From Gimesia benthica (GTDB lineage Bacteria > Planctomycetota > Planctomycetia > Planctomycetales > Planctomycetaceae): 64,000 nucleotides of DNA. The notes under the pieces are model-generated. The model did no database searches, was not told where the DNA came from, and saw only the letters and a program-made list of their open reading frames with translations. A program made the position numbers and the translations under genes. This document shows, piece by piece, positions 6,219-12,762 of this stretch. How positions within the stretch are numbered: position 1 is the stretch's first letter; each line of letters begins with the position of its first letter. Location of the stretch: assembly GCF_009720525.1 (NCBI RefSeq), contig NZ_CP043930.1, positions 4,806,501 through 4,870,500 on the forward strand, read 5' to 3'.

Positions 6219-7127
6219 TTACTCAACCATCGGCTTCACTGCGGTCACAATCGGATAGATTCCCATCGGTTCGGTTACCTGGTCGATGACGCGAAATCCG
6301 ACTGTTTCCAACATCCTTCGTACATCATCGCCGGAGCGTCTGATATGCTGTAGATTGAAGATTCGTTTGAGAGAGGGAGCACCATGCCAGGGATCGAGAA
6401 TCCCATGCGTGACCAGATTTCCTCCCCGGACCATGATTGTATGCAAGGCGGCCAACAGTTCGTGTAACTGCTGGTCATTCAAGTATTCGATGAGACCAAT
6501 CAGTTTAACGATATTCGGTTTGACATCGGGTAATACCGTCTGAATCTCTCGCGCGTCTCCCTGCAGGAAGCTGATACAGTCTGATATTCCGAGTTGTTCT
6601 GCCAGTTGTTGTCCGTATTCGAAGGCATCGTCGTCCAGGTCGATCAGGTGAGCGTGGACTTCGTCTGCACTTAACTGCAATCGGGAAATCGCGGTCTGCA
6701 CATGACGCCCCGGGCCAGCACCGACGCCCATGAGAACGACGGGCCCGTCCGACTGACGAGCCTGGATCAGGTCGATCAGGATTTGGGTTACCGTCTGCAA
6801 TCGATTCCGCGAAGCTCTGGAAATGGGGTTATCCAGGATCGCCTGTCGATCCAGCAGGTCGACCGGTGCATCTTTACGGTACAGGATTTCCATAGCCCTC
6901 CAGCCACCAGGGCGGCGAAAGGTCTCTTCGAGCAACTCGCTCTGACTCGACTGTAGTAATCTTTTGAGCCAACTGGCGGGGATCAGATAATTTTTGTAAG
7001 GATTGATCAGCCAGTTCCCGATTCGCTGTCCCCGGGTCATTGTTTCCAGCGGCTGCTGAAGATCTTGGGGAAGCCAGATCGCAGCAGAATCTGTGTCTGA
7101 CTCAGGTGCTGCCGTTGTAGGTGCCAT
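6219..7127 (-). CDS. Class I SAM-dependent methyltransferase
   Basis: 302 residues. The SAM-binding motif I is VVLMGVGAGPGRHVQTA (glycine loop at 134-140). A strand ending in HLIDLDDDAFEYG gives the acidic residue for the SAM ribose, and FLQGDAREIQTVLP is a post-II/III-like stretch. The first 120 residues are mostly helical and hold INPYKNYLIPASWLKRLL. They resemble from memory the putative methyltransferase domain PF12147, which in other bacteria can be fused to an alpha/beta hydrolase; this family assignment is tentative. The gene lies 40 bases downstream of the oxygenase gene on the same strand, so the two probably form an operon and methylation may be a tailoring step of the same pathway. 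The methyl acceptor is unknown. Confidence 0.78.
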   Translation of the reverse strand: MAPTTAAPESDTDSAAIWLPQDLQQPLETMTRGQRIGNWLINPYKNYLIPASWLKRLLQSSQSELLEETFRRPGGWRAMEILYRKDAPVDLLDRQAILDNPISRASRNRLQTVTQILIDLIQARQSDGPVVLMGVGAGPGRHVQTAISRLQLSADEVHAHLIDLDDDAFEYGQQLAEQLGISDCISFLQGDAREIQTVLPDVKPNIVKLIGLIEYLNDQQLHELLAALHTIMVRGGNLVTHGILDPWHGAPSLKRIFNLQHIRRSGDDVRRMLETVGFRVIDQVTEPMGIYPIVTAVKPMVE

Positions 7128-7167
7128 ACCATTCTGCCTTAGTGGTTAGACATTTAAAACTCTGTAT

Positions 7168-8133
7168 TTATCCCATTGCAACGAGAATCTTACGTGGTCC
7201 TGCATAAGGCATCCGGCCATGGGCGACACTGAAATTATCCAGGGCCAGCACATCTCCCTGCTGCCACGGGAAGATAACGGCCGTCTCCCACAGGGTCTTA
7301 CGGACTCCTGCGAGATCCTCATCGGTAATGGGGGAATCATCCCCGTAATACGCGTGGGTCGGCAGGTTTTCTTCTCCAAATAGCTGCAGCAGCTGAGCGC
7401 GGTTTCGTTCATTCACATTGGTGATATGCCAGAGATCGGCCTGGTTAAACCAGAGCATTTCTCCTGTAACTGGATGGGCCAGCGTGCCGGGGCGGATGGA
7501 CCAGGTACGCAGGTTTCCGTCGGCCGTCCATTCAAATTCGATGTCGTTGTCTTTGAGGTAAACTTCGACCTGATCCCGATCACTGGTTTCGAAATAATCC
7601 ATCCAGGACTTGCCGATCCCCCGCTCCTGCCCATGCATGTTCTTGACATAGCGGACTCCCCGTTCTTCGAATTTCGCCAGAATTTCGGCTGGCATCTCAC
7701 GATAGAGCTTTCGGCAGTCGACGATCGGCGTTTCTCCGCCGGTCTCAGCAGCACGATGACAGTGGAATACGATCCGTGGAGGGGGCGACTTGGTGTAGGA
7801 AAGCTCGTTGTGCAGCGTGATGCGAAACTGGGCAGGAAATTCGGTGGAAGTATATACGTTCCCGGTCACTTTGGTGCGGGGAGATTGCCCTTCGACGTAC
7901 GGCTTTAACTCTGGAATCAGCGCCTGGGCAACGTCCTGAAATTCATCAATTTCCTGAATGGTGAATACACGCAGCAACACGCCTCCCTGCTCCAGCAGAG
8001 TCTGATCCAGCCAGTTCCGTTCCCGTGAGATGTATTCTATCAGGTCACTCAGGGAGGCAGCCCCCTGGTCGGCCGGTTCAATGAGCAGGGGCAGGGTTTG
8101 TGGCTTTTCCAGATTCGAAGTCTTCACTTGCAT
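7168..8133 (-). CDS. TauD/TfdA-family Fe(II)/2-oxoglutarate dioxygenase, SyrP-like
   Basis: 321 residues from ATG 8133-8131. An upstream in-frame start at 8172 is possible but gives no recognisable extension. The family signature is VYTSTEFPAQFRITLHNELSY. His108 and Glu110 form the HxE metal pair, found in place of HxD in the SyrP-type branch. GGETPIVDCRKLYREMP follows. The C-terminal LALDNFSVAHGRMPYAGPRK supplies the distal metal ligand His305 and the 2-oxoglutarate-binding Arg314. Members of this branch hydroxylate amino acids, in known cases while tethered to a carrier protein. That fits the divergently transcribed adenylating ligase and acyl carrier protein that start 360 bases away. Substrate and product (hydroxylation, desaturation or other) cannot be told from sequence. 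Confidence 0.85.
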   Translation of the reverse strand: MQVKTSNLEKPQTLPLLIEPADQGAASLSDLIEYISRERNWLDQTLLEQGGVLLRVFTIQEIDEFQDVAQALIPELKPYVEGQSPRTKVTGNVYTSTEFPAQFRITLHNELSYTKSPPPRIVFHCHRAAETGGETPIVDCRKLYREMPAEILAKFEERGVRYVKNMHGQERGIGKSWMDYFETSDRDQVEVYLKDNDIEFEWTADGNLRTWSIRPGTLAHPVTGEMLWFNQADLWHITNVNERNRAQLLQLFGEENLPTHAYYGDDSPITDEDLAGVRKTLWETAVIFPWQQGDVLALDNFSVAHGRMPYAGPRKILVAMG

Positions 8134-8491
8134 GGGACTTACTCGGAAATAGAGAACGATTGAATGGCACATAGAGGTCAGCCGGAGATTGTTGCTGGAG
8201 AAAAGGCCACAATCAGTGGTATCGGCTACTTACTGAACGGGTGGATGATAGTTCTGAATAGATTAGGTGTAAATCCCTTTATATCCCCTGTGATGTTCGT
8301 TCTGGGTGGTCAGATGGGTGAAATAGGGTGTTTGATCTGGTCGTCCTGATAAAAACGGGGGTATGTATGCCGATTCAGCGGTGCAAACGATCATGAAACG
8401 CCGATAAGGATGAGGGAAATTACCCTCAGATCTACTATGGTCAGAGGGACTCTCTCTGAAGAGAGCAATTTACACTTTGAGACCGTTTCGT
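8134..8491. other. Divergent promoter region of the carrier-protein cluster
   Basis: 358 bases between the leftward oxygenase-methyltransferase pair and the rightward ligase operon. It must carry promoters for both directions. The part near the ligase has a near-palindrome (8411-8428) and a CTCTC/GAGAG hairpin (8452-8465, loop TGAA). TACTAT at 8433-8438 could be a -10 box, but I cannot find a matching -35 box. No gene is convincing here; a 61-codon frame at 8164-8349 lacks a ribosome binding site and any recognisable content. Confidence 0.5.
8411..8428. promoter_or_regulatory. Candidate operator palindrome upstream of ligase operon
   Basis: TGAGGGAAATTACCCTCA matches its own reverse complement at 16 of 18 positions, with arms TGAGGG/CCCTCA around an AATT centre. 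It ends 63 bases before the ligase start codon, a common position for a repressor or activator dimer site. No regulator gene lies in the cluster, so the binding protein is unknown. Confidence 0.4.
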
Positions 8492-10099
8492 ATGCACTTC
8501 CCCATAGACTTTCGCTCCAGCCTCAGGCTGGTCGAGCATCCGCTTGCAGCTTCTCCCATAACCCTTCTGGAGGAGGTGACCTCTGAAAGTACGGGAGCAG
8601 GGTTGGTCGATCGACTACTGGAAATCACAGCTCTGCATAGTGAGCAACCCGCGATTTCCACATCTGAGCGGACCTTGAGTTATGGTGAGCTGATTTTGCT
8701 GGTCAGACATATTTCCGAACAGCTGTCTGAGGTCGCCGGTTTTGAATCCGGAAGCCGTGTTGTACTGCTGGTTCCCAATTCCGTGGAATATATTGCTGCC
8801 TTCTACGCAGTCTTGTTCGCCGGTGGTGTCGTTGTGCCTGTTCCAGCGAATACGGAGAGCGGCGCGCTAAAGAATATTCTGGATTCAACGCAGGCGATCT
8901 GTACGATTACAACTGCCCCGGTTTTAAGGCGTCATCCGGATCTGGAAGAATATACTGTAAAGGGCATGGATTCAGAGGAATCTGTGACCGGAACAGTTCC
9001 AGTAAATACACTCCAGCCGGTTGCACGCTCTGAGAAGAACCTGGCTGCAATTTTCTTTACATCCGGTTCCAGTGGAATGCCCAAGGGGGTCATGCTGAGT
9101 CACGGGAACCTGATCTCTAACGCGCAATCGATTCAGGAATACCTGCAGTTGCAGGCAGACGAACGGCCTATCTGCGTCCTGCCTTTCCATCATGCGTTTG
9201 GAAACTCTGTACTGCAGTCTCACCTTCTACAGGGGGCGCATCTGATTCTGGACGGGAATACCATCTTTCCCGAAAGCATTCTGGAAGCAATGATCCGCCA
9301 CGAATGCACCAGTCTCTCAGCGGTCCCCGACCTGTATCGGATTCTGCTGGAACGAACTTCATTTAAGCAGACGCGGTTTCCACATCTGCGTTATATGTCT
9401 GTTGCGGGAGGTGCCCTGCCCTATGCACAGGCCGTCGAAATCAGCGATGTCATCCATCCGGCCCGTTTCTTTGTCATGTACGGCCAGACGGAAGCTACGG
9501 CTCGCTTGGCCTATGTACCACCGGAGCAAATCGCCGGTGTAAGTGACGGCACCATCGGTCAGGCAATACCCGGAGTAACGCTGCAGATCGTGGATGAAAG
9601 TGGGCAACTTGTGGATGCAGGTACGGTCGGCGAGCTGCGGGCTCGTGGCCCCAACATCATGCAGGGCTACTGGAGAGATGCGGAAGAGACCCGCAAACGG
9701 ATACACAATGGCTGGCTCTATACGGGAGATCTGGCCACTTTCGATCAGTCAGGCAGAATCGTCATCAAAGGTCGACGAAATTCACTGGTCAAAATATCCG
9801 GTTATCGCGTGCATCCGGCAGATCTGGAGCAATTCGCGCTGCGAACTTTTCCCCTGTCGCAGGCTGTGGCGGTCCCCTTTGAAGCAAAAAATACAGGTAC
9901 GCGGCTGGCATTGTACATCGAAACCACTCCAGGAGGTACGGGACTCACGGAAGCAGAAATGCTGAGCGTCTGTCGCAGCCAGCTGCCACGCCAACTCGTG
10001 CCGGACCGGATCCGGATCTTACAGAAAATTCCATTAAATCACGCCATGAAAGTCGATCGGGTCAAGCTGTCAGAATTGGCAGCAGTCGGCGATCTGTAA
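8492..10099 (+). CDS. Class I adenylate-forming acyl/aminoacyl ligase (AMP-binding protein)
   Basis: 535 residues from ATG 8492; a TTG five codons upstream is the only extension. The ANL superfamily core motifs are all present in order: the P-loop-like FFTSGSSGMPKGV (188-200), the aromatic-rich VLPFHHAFGNSVLQSHLL, YGQTEATARLAYVP (A5), the GELRARGPNIMQGYW stretch, LYTGDLATFDQSGRIVIKGR (A7/hinge Asp) and a C-terminal catalytic Lys in LNHAMKVDRVKL (A10). It activates a carboxylate with ATP and transfers it to a thiol. With a free acyl carrier protein 37 bases downstream, loading onto that carrier is more likely than CoA ester formation. The substrate-binding pocket cannot be decoded by eye, so a fatty acid or an amino acid are both possible. 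It is the first gene of a four-gene rightward operon. Confidence 0.88.
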   Translation: MHFPIDFRSSLRLVEHPLAASPITLLEEVTSESTGAGLVDRLLEITALHSEQPAISTSERTLSYGELILLVRHISEQLSEVAGFESGSRVVLLVPNSVEYIAAFYAVLFAGGVVVPVPANTESGALKNILDSTQAICTITTAPVLRRHPDLEEYTVKGMDSEESVTGTVPVNTLQPVARSEKNLAAIFFTSGSSGMPKGVMLSHGNLISNAQSIQEYLQLQADERPICVLPFHHAFGNSVLQSHLLQGAHLILDGNTIFPESILEAMIRHECTSLSAVPDLYRILLERTSFKQTRFPHLRYMSVAGGALPYAQAVEISDVIHPARFFVMYGQTEATARLAYVPPEQIAGVSDGTIGQAIPGVTLQIVDESGQLVDAGTVGELRARGPNIMQGYWRDAEETRKRIHNGWLYTGDLATFDQSGRIVIKGRRNSLVKISGYRVHPADLEQFALRTFPLSQAVAVPFEAKNTGTRLALYIETTPGGTGLTEAEMLSVCRSQLPRQLVPDRIRILQKIPLNHAMKVDRVKLSELAAVGDL

Positions 10100-10136
10100 T
10101 CTTAACTTTCGTCTGCAACTGCAAAGGACACGACTA

Positions 10137-10391
10137 ATGAGTGTATCGATTCAGGAACAACTGGTTGAATTTCTAAACTCCGTCACCGGACAGACAATTA
10201 CTGATAGCACCGAACTGATTGATTCCGGTCTGCTGGATTCCCTGACGATGATGGACCTGCTGGTCTTCGTCGAATCTGATTTTGAAGTACGACTCGATTT
10301 TCAGGATATCAGACCAGATTTATTTAAAAATCCCGCCACGATTTCTCAGCTGATTTCAGAGCGACAGGCAGAGCAGAAAAAAGCTGCCTGA
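10137..10391 (+). CDS. Free-standing acyl carrier protein
   Basis: 84 residues, the usual size for a carrier protein. The phosphopantetheine attachment site is LIDSGLLDSLTMMDLLVF, with Ser35 in the DSL motif, followed by the acidic helix II. It begins 37 bases after the ligase stop, and AAAGGACACGACTA precedes the ATG. It probably receives the acyl or aminoacyl group activated by the ligase and presents it to the oxygenase, the E2-like acyltransferase or the DUF2156 transferase. It is not the fatty-acid-synthesis AcpP: the sequence around the Ser differs from the usual GADSLD motif and no fab genes are nearby. No phosphopantetheinyl transferase is encoded in the window. Confidence 0.92.
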   Translation: MSVSIQEQLVEFLNSVTGQTITDSTELIDSGLLDSLTMMDLLVFVESDFEVRLDFQDIRPDLFKNPATISQLISERQAEQKKAA

Positions 10392-10447
10392 AACTACTCT
10401 GGACAGGACGTCAGAGTATTACAAATCCAATAGACAGGATGTCTGAT

Positions 10448-11347
10448 ATGTATTGGGCGACAAAGAGTAAACCGGTGCCACTCTCCGAGATTGGCTGGAT
10501 CAATACCACCTATCTCGCGAGTACATCGCTCCGTTGCGATCCGATGCTCGTCTGGGGAACCACGGTCGATACCGAAGAGCTGGATTCCTTTCTGGAAGAG
10601 CAGCGCAGACTCAACCGCACTATGCTCACTCCCGCGCATGTTCTGGTACGTGCCGTGGCTGAAAGCCTGCGACAGCATCCGGAAGTCAACCGCCGGGTGA
10701 TTGGGAAAAAAGTTTATCAGTACGAGGGCGTGAATATTGTCATGCCGATGCTGCAGACCAGCACGGGCGAAGTCGATTGTGTCTTCATGCGGAAAGCCGA
10801 AGATTATTCACTCGACGAGATCGCGGGTTACTTCTGGGAGTCAGCCAGAGAAAAATCGATGCAGGTGGCCCGTGATAAAAAACGTGTCAAAGAGGGATCA
10901 ACGTTTAAAAACGCATTGATCAACCTGGGACGCTGGCTCCGGCTTTCCTGGATTCTGCACACCTCGAAGGTTGGATTCACGGCCGGCAACTGGCTTCGGG
11001 CTCCCACCATCTGGCCCTGGCAGCAGGGACTGAATCATGCTGGGGCATTCGTCAATTATCTGGGGTTCTCCGGTGCACCGCCATTGATTGCCCATAAACC
11101 CGCGTCGCTCCCACTCAATGCATACTGTATCGCCGTCACCATGGGAGCTACTGAAAAACGCCCTGTCGTTGTGGATGATAAAGTCGTCGTGCGTAAACAG
11201 GCTTCCCTGTTTGTGCGGCTGGACCATCGTATGGTCAACGGAAATCAGTCTGCAGCGTTCATCAATACCCTGCGCAGCTTTCTGATGCACCCGCAGAGCC
11301 TGGTTCAGCAGTCTGAGGATGCAGAAGTTCAGAAACGGGCTGCCTGA
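10448..11347 (+). CDS. Lipoyl-less 2-oxoacid-dehydrogenase (E2/CAT-fold) acyltransferase-like protein
   Basis: About 299 residues carrying only the chloramphenicol-acetyltransferase-like catalytic fold of E2 enzymes, with no lipoyl or peripheral-subunit-binding domain. Features are LTPAHVLVRAVAESLRQHPEVN, VYQYEGVNIVMPML and a C-terminal LFVRLDHRMVNGNQSAAFIN. The last corresponds to the catalytic DHRxxDG of E2, with the His kept (about His260) but the Asp replaced by Asn. A middle segment around LGRWLRLSWILHTSKVGF is extra relative to E2 cores. I chose ATG 10448 because AGGA lies eight bases upstream; an ATG three codons earlier overlaps that site. In this operon it probably transfers the carrier-bound acyl group to an acceptor, much as condensation domains of the same superfamily do. 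The acceptor is unknown and the Asn may alter activity. Confidence 0.75.
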   Translation: MYWATKSKPVPLSEIGWINTTYLASTSLRCDPMLVWGTTVDTEELDSFLEEQRRLNRTMLTPAHVLVRAVAESLRQHPEVNRRVIGKKVYQYEGVNIVMPMLQTSTGEVDCVFMRKAEDYSLDEIAGYFWESAREKSMQVARDKKRVKEGSTFKNALINLGRWLRLSWILHTSKVGFTAGNWLRAPTIWPWQQGLNHAGAFVNYLGFSGAPPLIAHKPASLPLNAYCIAVTMGATEKRPVVVDDKVVVRKQASLFVRLDHRMVNGNQSAAFINTLRSFLMHPQSLVQQSEDAEVQKRAA

Positions 11348-11430
11348 GTTGAAGAAGAGATTCATTTTAAATCCTGCCTCCCACACGAGGAAGTTCCGTA
11401 CCACGGTCCGTTAATTTTCGGAGCCCACCA

Positions 11431-12762
11431 ATGTCGTCAGCTGATTCTCATTCCAGACAGGGCCTGCAACTGCATCAGAGCGATCAGCGGCAGACACGCC
11501 AGGGCTTGTCCGTCGACCAGCTGACCAGTCAGAACGCAGACCGTTTTGAACGGGCCGGGACACAGTGGCGGATTGATCCATCGCATCAGGTGTTCGATCA
11601 AGAACCGCTGGGTCTGCCCGAGGAGCACACAGAAACAGAACTGCGCGATTTTATTTTTGAGCATGGCAGATATTTTGATTCCTATCTGGCTTCCGAACCG
11701 GATCGTGATCAGTTCTGGTCTCAGGGGAAACGGGGATTAATCTCCTACAAACGCTGGTACCGACATGTCATCATTGGGGGAGGCCTGATTGCTCCCGAAC
11801 CCCATAAACCTCAACTGGTACGCGAATTTCTGGAGTATGCGAAACAGAACCGGCTATCAATTGCCTTTCACAACATCGGAGAAGCAGATCTTCCCCTGTT
11901 TCAGGAAATGCAGTTTCAGGTGACCAAGTGGGGCGAAGACCCGATGATCGATCTGGATACCTGCACCTGGCAGGGAAAAGATTATGAATGGGTCCGCCGA
12001 CAGACCAATTATTGCCTCCGGCAGGGGATGACCGCCTGCGAGGTTCGTCCAGATCAACTGCATCCGCTGCACTGGTCCGATATCATCTCAGAGGTCATTG
12101 AAGTCGCCGACGAATCGTTGACGCGTAAACCTCAAAAAAAAGCGATGCGTTTCTTTGAGGGACGAATTGATAATCATGCACTCGGGCGACGGCGTCTGTT
12201 CATTGCCCGCTACCAGGGACGGATCGAAGGCTTTGTGATCTGTAATCCCATTTTGAATGGGACCGGTTGGGCGACAGAACTCTATCGGCATCGCCTGGAT
12301 TCGGTTAAAGGCACCATGGCCTTCCTGATTCATTTCGTATTACAGCAACTGAAACAGGAAGGTGTTGCGCAGGCCGGGCTCTGTCTGGATCTGGGACGCG
12401 ACTGTCACCGCCTGCCCGGTGACAGTGCGCTGGTGAGGCACGGCTTGCGATTTGCAGAAAATTATCTGACCAGTATCTTTGATTTTACCGGTTTGCGACA
12501 TTTTAAAAGCCGCTTTCGACCGCGCTATGAAAAGCGGTTTGCCTGCGTTTATCCCAAGGTCACCATCGGTTCGATTCTGGCCTTCGTCAGTACTACCGGC
12601 GTACTCGATCTGCACTACGGACGCTATTCCCGCATCCTCTACAATCAGCACTGCAAACGAAAGCTCCGCCGAAATCTGGCGACTGGTAATTCGTCGCAGT
12701 CTGACACTGCAGCTTCGCCGAAAATGAATTCTAAACCTTTCTCTTTGCGGAAGAGTGCCTGA
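11431..12762 (+). CDS. Phosphatidylglycerol lysyltransferase-type (DUF2156, GNAT-fold) transferase
   Basis: 443 residues. The pattern of the catalytic C-terminal domain of MprF/LPG synthases is clear: GKRGLISYKRWYRHVIIGGG (residues 99-118), the helix VREFLEYAKQNRLSIAFHNI, LPLFQEMQFQVTKWGEDPMI, and near the end a basic RFRPRYEKRF block typical of this group. Unlike MprF there is no multi-helix flippase domain, and the first 70 residues are polar, so the protein appears soluble or peripheral. MprF-type domains transfer an aminoacyl group from tRNA to a lipid head group. Here the donor could instead be the carrier protein encoded two genes upstream. It is last in the ligase operon, 83 bases after the acyltransferase, and a hairpin follows the stop. 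Confidence 0.78.
   Translation: MSSADSHSRQGLQLHQSDQRQTRQGLSVDQLTSQNADRFERAGTQWRIDPSHQVFDQEPLGLPEEHTETELRDFIFEHGRYFDSYLASEPDRDQFWSQGKRGLISYKRWYRHVIIGGGLIAPEPHKPQLVREFLEYAKQNRLSIAFHNIGEADLPLFQEMQFQVTKWGEDPMIDLDTCTWQGKDYEWVRRQTNYCLRQGMTACEVRPDQLHPLHWSDIISEVIEVADESLTRKPQKKAMRFFEGRIDNHALGRRRLFIARYQGRIEGFVICNPILNGTGWATELYRHRLDSVKGTMAFLIHFVLQQLKQEGVAQAGLCLDLGRDCHRLPGDSALVRHGLRFAENYLTSIFDFTGLRHFKSRFRPRYEKRFACVYPKVTIGSILAFVSTTGVLDLHYGRYSRILYNQHCKRKLRRNLATGNSSQSDTAASPKMNSKPFSLRKSA

Follow-up and report, generated by a model that had tools for sequence, protein, structure and literature searches.

The subject of this analysis is a compact set of six genes in a 64,000-nucleotide stretch of DNA from the planctomycete Gimesia benthica, the whole of which is called the window here (the host genome is 8.03 Mb in one contig). 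These genes, arranged on both sides of a divergent intergenic region, encode a ligase (LIG), an acyl carrier protein (ACP), an acyltransferase related to the E2 component of 2-oxoacid dehydrogenases (E2), an MprF-type transferase (sLPG) and, in the opposite direction, an oxygenase (OX) and a methyltransferase (MT) (Table 1). A first-pass annotation of positions 8134–12762 had read them as a carrier-protein pathway devoid of nonribosomal peptide synthetase (NRPS) and polyketide synthase (PKS). All six open reading frames (ORFs) are found in the window and their Pfam matches bear out the family assigned to each, including OX and MT, which that annotation named although they lie outside its interval, at 6219–8133. 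No NRPS or PKS family, condensation domain or multidomain synthetase is found among the ten proteins that were scanned with Pfam, in agreement with the first-pass annotation.

Table 1. Features of the unit, in window coordinates
Feature	Position	Strand	Description	Pfam match or other evidence
MT	6219..7127	-	class I S-adenosylmethionine (SAM) methyltransferase, 302 aa	Methyltransf_20, 7.5e-14, 52 bits (cut-off 21)
OX	7168..8133	-	SyrP-like TauD-family oxygenase, HxE...H	TauD, 1.6e-40, 140 bits
Intergenic region, divergent	8134..8491	.		contains a minus-strand sigma-70-like promoter (candidate)
LIG	8492..10099	+	stand-alone AMP-forming acyl ligase, 535 aa	AMP-binding, 2.5e-71
ACP	10137..10391	+	free-standing acyl carrier protein, 84 aa, Ser35	PP-binding, 7.2e-5
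E2	10439..11347	+	lipoyl-less E2-fold acyltransferase, 302 aa, catalytic-type His263	2-oxoacid_dh, 1.2e-17
sLPG	11431..12762	+	soluble MprF-type transferase, 443 aa, looser member	LPG_synthase_C, 5.8e-42

The genes are under purifying selection, with dN/dS values of 0.07–0.16 for all six between the window and genome G181 and of 0.08–0.16 for five between the window and G238 (ACP was left out of this comparison). Composition does not mark the unit as foreign, its G+C content being 52.5% versus 51.9% for the window. The start of LIG is most likely the ATG at 8492 rather than the TTG at 8477, a choice based on the N-termini of its orthologues. That of OX is most likely at M14 of the longest ORF (8133/8134), since the orthologues begin there and, in the G378 copy, translation from the earlier start would meet a stop after about 10 residues, ahead of this methionine. 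Between the two genes, a candidate minus-strand promoter (TTTACA at 8273, a 17-nt spacer and TATCAT ending at 8245) would read in the direction of OX and MT. Its boxes are recognizable in an alignment of eight loci, the most distant one (L076) excepted; taken alone, the match is weak, as the 4.8 kb scanned contain one such match where chance would give 4.2.

Conservation and layering of the unit

E2 was sought in 246 genomes of the phylum and 397 genomes of the class, the class sample being also searched for OX, MT and sLPG. An orthologue of E2 is present in 22 of the 397 class genomes, all belonging to one family and including nine of the 15 members of the genus. In the phylum sample, four members of the genus have matches that range from near-identical to 69%, and other families have only distant ones (at most 31% identity over most of the protein). 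No LIG match at 1e-4 is detected at eleven loci that carry such distant E2 relatives (22–31%) in other planctomycetes, and a search of plasmids for E2 gave no match.

The comparison of gene neighbourhoods covers 23 loci, namely that of the window and 22 orthologue loci, which together stand for the 22 class-sample genomes and the contig OFTM93. LIG and ACP are located with E2 in 22 of them. In the exception, G611, E2 sits at the end of its contig; another contig bears the first part of LIG, divergent from OX. Gene order varies by lineage: it is E2-LIG-ACP in G402, and about 2 kb separate ACP from E2 in G580. In four genomes of another genus (L078, L079, L080 and L081), an ORF carrying a GYSSG motif (6531–7259 in L078) lies directly upstream of LIG; its product has no Pfam match in the two loci scanned (L078 and L080). 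OX is located in 15 loci (the copy of G318 being broken) as well as on the other contig of G611. MT is located in 12 loci, elsewhere in the genome in G482, G416, G382 and G410, and on a contig of its own in G611. sLPG occurs in eight loci, lying immediately 3' of E2 in seven genomes from two genera and in OFTM93, and a remnant of it persists in G318. A lack of conserved neighbourhood in related genomes would have spoken against the reading of the first-pass annotation; since LIG, ACP and E2 prove to be linked in nearly all loci, this objection falls.

Among the 22 genomes that carry E2, 16 have OX, 17 MT and 17 sLPG, whereas five (G227, G591, G354, G532 and G580) carry the core only, without orthologues of these three genes. 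The OX search retrieves 19 of the 397 class genomes at E 1e-60, three with 40–43% identity and 16 with at least 58%; these 16 genomes all carry E2 and MT too. MT is found in 18 genomes and co-occurs with E2 in 17, even where it is encoded elsewhere. The eighteenth, G511, has an MT fragment at a contig end next to malic enzyme, thiamine pyrophosphate (TPP) decarboxylase and YciA genes, which usually flank the unit; the cluster has therefore probably been truncated there. sLPG is more widespread (39/397, 17 with E2 and 22 without), and its co-occurrence in the genus g200 says little because three genomes (G434, G440 and G556) have sLPG without E2. The unit is thus layered, with a LIG-ACP-E2 core, a second layer made of OX and MT, and sLPG as its loosest part. 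The reading of the six genes as one pathway holds as regards a conserved set, but this set is built on a three-gene core and is not indivisible.

The layers can be followed at a single genomic site. Six of the 15 genus members carry the full unit (the window, G238, G181, G378, G299 and G338). In the others, the unit is decayed (G318), reduced to the core (G227 and G591) or to LIG alone (G048 and G069), cut by a contig end (G511), or absent from an empty site with about 220 bp between the flanking genes (G334, G455 and G470). The same flanks, a flavin adenine dinucleotide (FAD) protein gene and the u12969 gene, are found in all 15 members except G511, and those of the core in G227 and G591 are the flanks of the empty site. 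In G318 (L077, 8796–9644 and 11969–12883), residues 1–170 of E2 are fused in-frame to residues 309–443 of sLPG, and the OX matches lie in two frames. The malic enzyme, the TPP decarboxylase, the YciA thioesterase and the FAD protein were considered as pathway members and rejected, since empty and ligase-only sites have them as neighbours as well; the YciA thioesterase thus does not belong to the unit. Full, core-only, ligase-only and empty versions of one site in related species constitute a ready-made comparative set.

Properties of the six proteins

The motifs HA[FY]GNS and PL[NT]xxxKxDR are kept in 22 of 23 LIG sequences, the last one being cut by a contig end. Gly237 of LIG aligns opposite the Asp of the FDxS motif (Asp235 of NRPS domains) in both domains of LgrA. 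In adenylation domains, this Asp is the residue that accommodates the alpha-amino group of an amino-acid substrate. LIG therefore probably activates an acid devoid of alpha-amino group, and its identification as an alpha-amino-acid adenylating domain was set aside, even though an NRPS is its best PDB sequence match. The best single LgrA domain scores 130.8 bits, versus 151 for malonyl-CoA synthetase, and LIG scores with acyl ligase and NRPS adenylation-domain models of NCBIfam, all below their cut-offs. Its relatives (31–35% identity) adjoin an ACP gene in three of four plasmid loci inspected among 270 matched records (one of the four was chosen because its entry named an ACP); those of Azospirillum and Paludibaculum are found, together with ACPs, in polysaccharide clusters.

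The carrier protein matches PP-binding with 23.4 bits (cut-off 20.8). Its serine at residue 35 lies in a D-S-L motif that is found in 20 of 21 ACP sequences, the other one having ESL. Among NCBIfam models it comes closest to those of the OlsHI-type ACP and of DltC, in both cases under the cut-off. Identity with the ornithine-lipid OlsHI system was rejected, as the protein scores below the cut-off of that model and OlsHI, by the account given in PMC12493201, does not need an ACP.

The iron-binding motif of OX is complete (H121-x-E123 and H318, in the numbering of the 334-aa ORF), and HNE is retained in 15 of 15 aligned orthologues, the G378 copy being left out of this count. PDB matches include 1y0z and 9yut. 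In all six plasmid records inspected out of 86 matched, relatives with 40–45% identity adjoin NRPS genes or form part of them; two of the six already carried NRPS-type names among the matches listed. According to a review, TauD/SyrP enzymes hydroxylate Asp while it is tethered to a T domain (PMC8949500). Both lines agree with the earlier placing of OX in a group that acts on carrier-tethered substrates. MT has a class I fold, and methyltransferases of natural-product pathways are frequent among its listed Foldseek matches; neither this search nor a PDB sequence search narrowed down its substrate, and the idea of a PhcB-like function led no further. In the core-only locus L088 (G354), a cytochrome P450 gene (5904–7148) is found near the core, possibly in place of the oxygenase, and an alpha/beta-hydrolase gene (8430–9353) is also close.

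No lipoyl domain is detected by Pfam on the E2 chain, nor any hydrophobic window above 1.6. The residues D262-H263-R264 are invariant in 21 of 21 aligned sequences; the motif is of the DHRxxDG type, the later Asp being an Asn in the window protein (DHRxxN). An AlphaFold2 (AF2) model (pLDDT 81) predicts two long helices at residues 125–185. The 50 listed Foldseek matches of this model are all entries for E2 or for 2-oxoacid dehydrogenase complexes, one being titled only 'mitochondrial soluble protein', and TM-scores by query of 0.51–0.58 indicate a fit at the family level and not a close one. Two further E2 matches exist in the genome (frames of 399 and 441 aa, 271 bits each over almost the entire model). 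Release of an acyl group by the E2-fold enzyme, as proposed in the first-pass annotation, is plausible as a hypothesis.

sLPG matches LPG_synthase_C with 144 bits (cut-off 27.5) and aligns with lysyl-phosphatidylglycerol synthase domains (4v36 at 1e-19). Its 443 residues contain no hydrophobic window above 1.6, hence no transmembrane flippase domain, and the genome has a separate frame for a full-length MprF (858 aa) elsewhere, at 1.67 Mb. A scan of genome contigs with the sLPG protein yielded one short contig only. Of 15 sLPG loci inspected outside the cluster, five (L095, L097, L099, L103 and L105) have a FemAB-like gene next to sLPG, identified as PF04339 in the three that were scanned with Pfam; no other partner is shared among the 15 loci. 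A soluble LPG_synthase_C relative and a FemAB-like protein could possibly form a transferase pair. The position of sLPG after E2 in some loci speaks for the pathway membership given to it by the first-pass annotation, while the breadth of its family makes this membership weaker than that of the other genes.

Proposed pathway and rival explanations

Any explanation of the unit has to start from what the data show: the families of its genes, the intactness of their catalytic motifs, the purifying selection on them, and their conserved linkage and co-occurrence. The one that we put forward, with confidence about evenly divided for and against, is a layered carrier-protein pathway, free of NRPS and PKS, that makes a small acyl conjugate. 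LIG would adenylate a carboxylic acid that lacks an alpha-amino group and load it onto the phosphopantetheine arm of the free-standing ACP. The tethered acyl group would be hydroxylated by the SyrP-like OX, and MT would methylate this group or the product. The E2-fold enzyme would then take the acyl group from ACP and pass it to an amine or hydroxyl acceptor, and sLPG, where present, would add an aminoacyl group from aminoacyl-tRNA. The step most strongly suggested is the unloading of ACP, which is likely the task of E2, because in G227 and G591 no other gene remains at the site to perform it. We infer acyl-ACP as the E2 donor, and likewise the order of steps, the substrate, the product, the acceptor and the tRNA dependence of sLPG; the acceptor and the role of sLPG are the weakest parts of the scheme.

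Several observations weigh against this pathway. Co-occurrence gives hypergeometric values of 1.6e-24 by genome and 7e-7 by genus, which ignore relatedness and therefore overstate the independence of these related genomes. G402 has E2, MT and sLPG without OX, and sLPG occurs in 22 genomes that lack E2 as well as in other neighbourhoods. The best PDB sequence match of LIG is the NRPS LgrA (221.7 bits over two domains), and the tethered substrate described for TauD/SyrP enzymes in PMC8949500 is an amino acid (Asp), which LIG does not seem to select. The characterized E2-family enzyme of a tetronate pathway is, as presented in PMC5819245, an O-acetyltransferase acting on a released intermediate. 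Moreover, in G048 (L127, 6824–8419) and G069 (L129) the site of the unit has an intact LIG with neither ACP nor E2 next to it. This lone LIG (532 aa) retains HAFGNS, GQTEATARL and KxDR, and dN/dS between the two genomes is 0.13, indicating purifying selection. Strict dependence of LIG on this ACP is thereby put in doubt, and LIG may do without it.

Four rival explanations can be set against the same data. LIG could be an ordinary acyl-CoA ligase, the conserved order reflecting shared ancestry within one planctomycete family and not one pathway. The selected orphan LIG and the restriction of the 22 E2 genomes to one family agree with this, yet all 22 assessable loci have LIG and ACP together with E2, although the genes around them are rearranged, and MT co-occurs even when encoded elsewhere, which makes it very improbable. 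Somewhat less remote, though still doubtful, is a DltA/DltC-like decoration of a surface polymer or lipid by the core, with the E2-like protein as transferase and sLPG as a parallel modifier of membrane lipids. DltC models match the ACP, though below cut-off, and LIG relatives reside in polysaccharide clusters with ACPs; on the other hand, LIG lacks the amino-acid Asp, E2 lacks a hydrophobic segment, and neither glycosyltransferase nor membrane acyltransferase is found among the ten proteins scanned. E2 might also not be the unloader and might instead O-acylate a product hydroxyl using acyl-CoA, in a tetronate-like manner, the ACP-bound group leaving otherwise. AbmA4 (annotated as an E2 component, 280 aa, with the homologues Agg4 and QmnD3) is encoded next to an ACP gene, and its deletion supports a role in acetylation (PMC5819245), while the GYSSG ORF upstream of LIG in four genomes recalls the hydrolase-fold partner of tetronate enzymes. 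We nevertheless consider this unlikely, as five genomes keep E2 without an oxygenase able to make the hydroxyl, and no FkbH or ketosynthase family occurs among the ten proteins scanned.

The role of sLPG is a separate matter. It may well be a hitch-hiker with its own function, the pathway proper having five genes; this is a serious minority possibility, compatible with the layered carrier-protein pathway proposed above. Its wide distribution, mostly apart from E2, and its FemAB-like neighbours favour such independence, as against its location right after E2 in two genera and OFTM93, the remnant in G318 and its absence from the five core-only genomes. The opposite extension of the proposed pathway, a minimal thiotemplate-tRNA hybrid in which LIG charges ACP, OX and MT tailor the acyl group, E2 uses acyl-ACP and sLPG adds a tRNA-borne amino acid, can only be advanced tentatively. 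If E2 does accept acyl-ACP, a fold of central metabolism would have been turned into an off-loading enzyme that is served by a charging system of its own; participation of sLPG would, in turn, bring thiotemplate and tRNA-dependent chemistry together in a single pathway.

Comparison with known systems

Cluster finders look mainly for large synthetases, so compact carrier-protein pathways are easily overlooked. No described pathway with this gene set was found in the open-licence literature, as judged by titles and abstract beginnings; the set is apparently undescribed, its families being themselves known.

The nearest charging module is DltA/DltC, which likewise combines a stand-alone adenylating enzyme with a small free carrier that feeds a transferase. 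It differs in that LIG lacks the amino-acid Asp and that the transferase of the present unit has an E2 fold. The transferase partners of the Dlt system are DltB and DltD; no family of either (MBOAT in the case of DltB) is found among the ten proteins scanned. Isonitrile lipopeptide clusters have a ligase, an ACP and a TauD-family enzyme, as here, but with an NRPS. OX shares with SyrP-like TauD hydroxylases the HxE motif and 40–45% identity to enzymes or domains of NRPS loci (SyrP itself is not in the comparison), whereas the present unit has no NRPS and its sole candidate carrier is the free ACP. In the same way, sLPG shares the C-terminal synthase domain of MprF and lysyl-phosphatidylglycerol synthases without any hydrophobic segment, and E2 shares the acyltransferase fold and the DHR motif of 2-oxoacid dehydrogenase E2 components without the lipoyl domain.

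NRPS-free amide formation in planctomycetes is known from OlsH/OlsI, which make ornithine lipids; this system, as described in PMC12493201, relies on a GH3 ligase and an alpha/beta-hydrolase, with no ACP. A GH3-family gene (the OlsH family) is present elsewhere in the genome, outside the unit (G000:C1:3501989-3502900, at 3.50 Mb). The tetronate enzymes AbmA4, Agg4 and QmnD3 resemble the present E2 as E2-family enzymes of biosynthesis, encoded in the case of AbmA4 beside an ACP gene, with gene deletion supporting acetylation of a hydroxyl by AbmA4. In the pathway as reported in PMC5819245, a glyceryl-ACP synthase charges the ACP and a PKS builds the chain; the present unit has a dedicated ligase instead, and PKS families are absent from the ten proteins scanned. 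E2-family acyltransferases in biosynthesis are thus already known from tetronate pathways, and the newness of the unit lies in its combination of genes.

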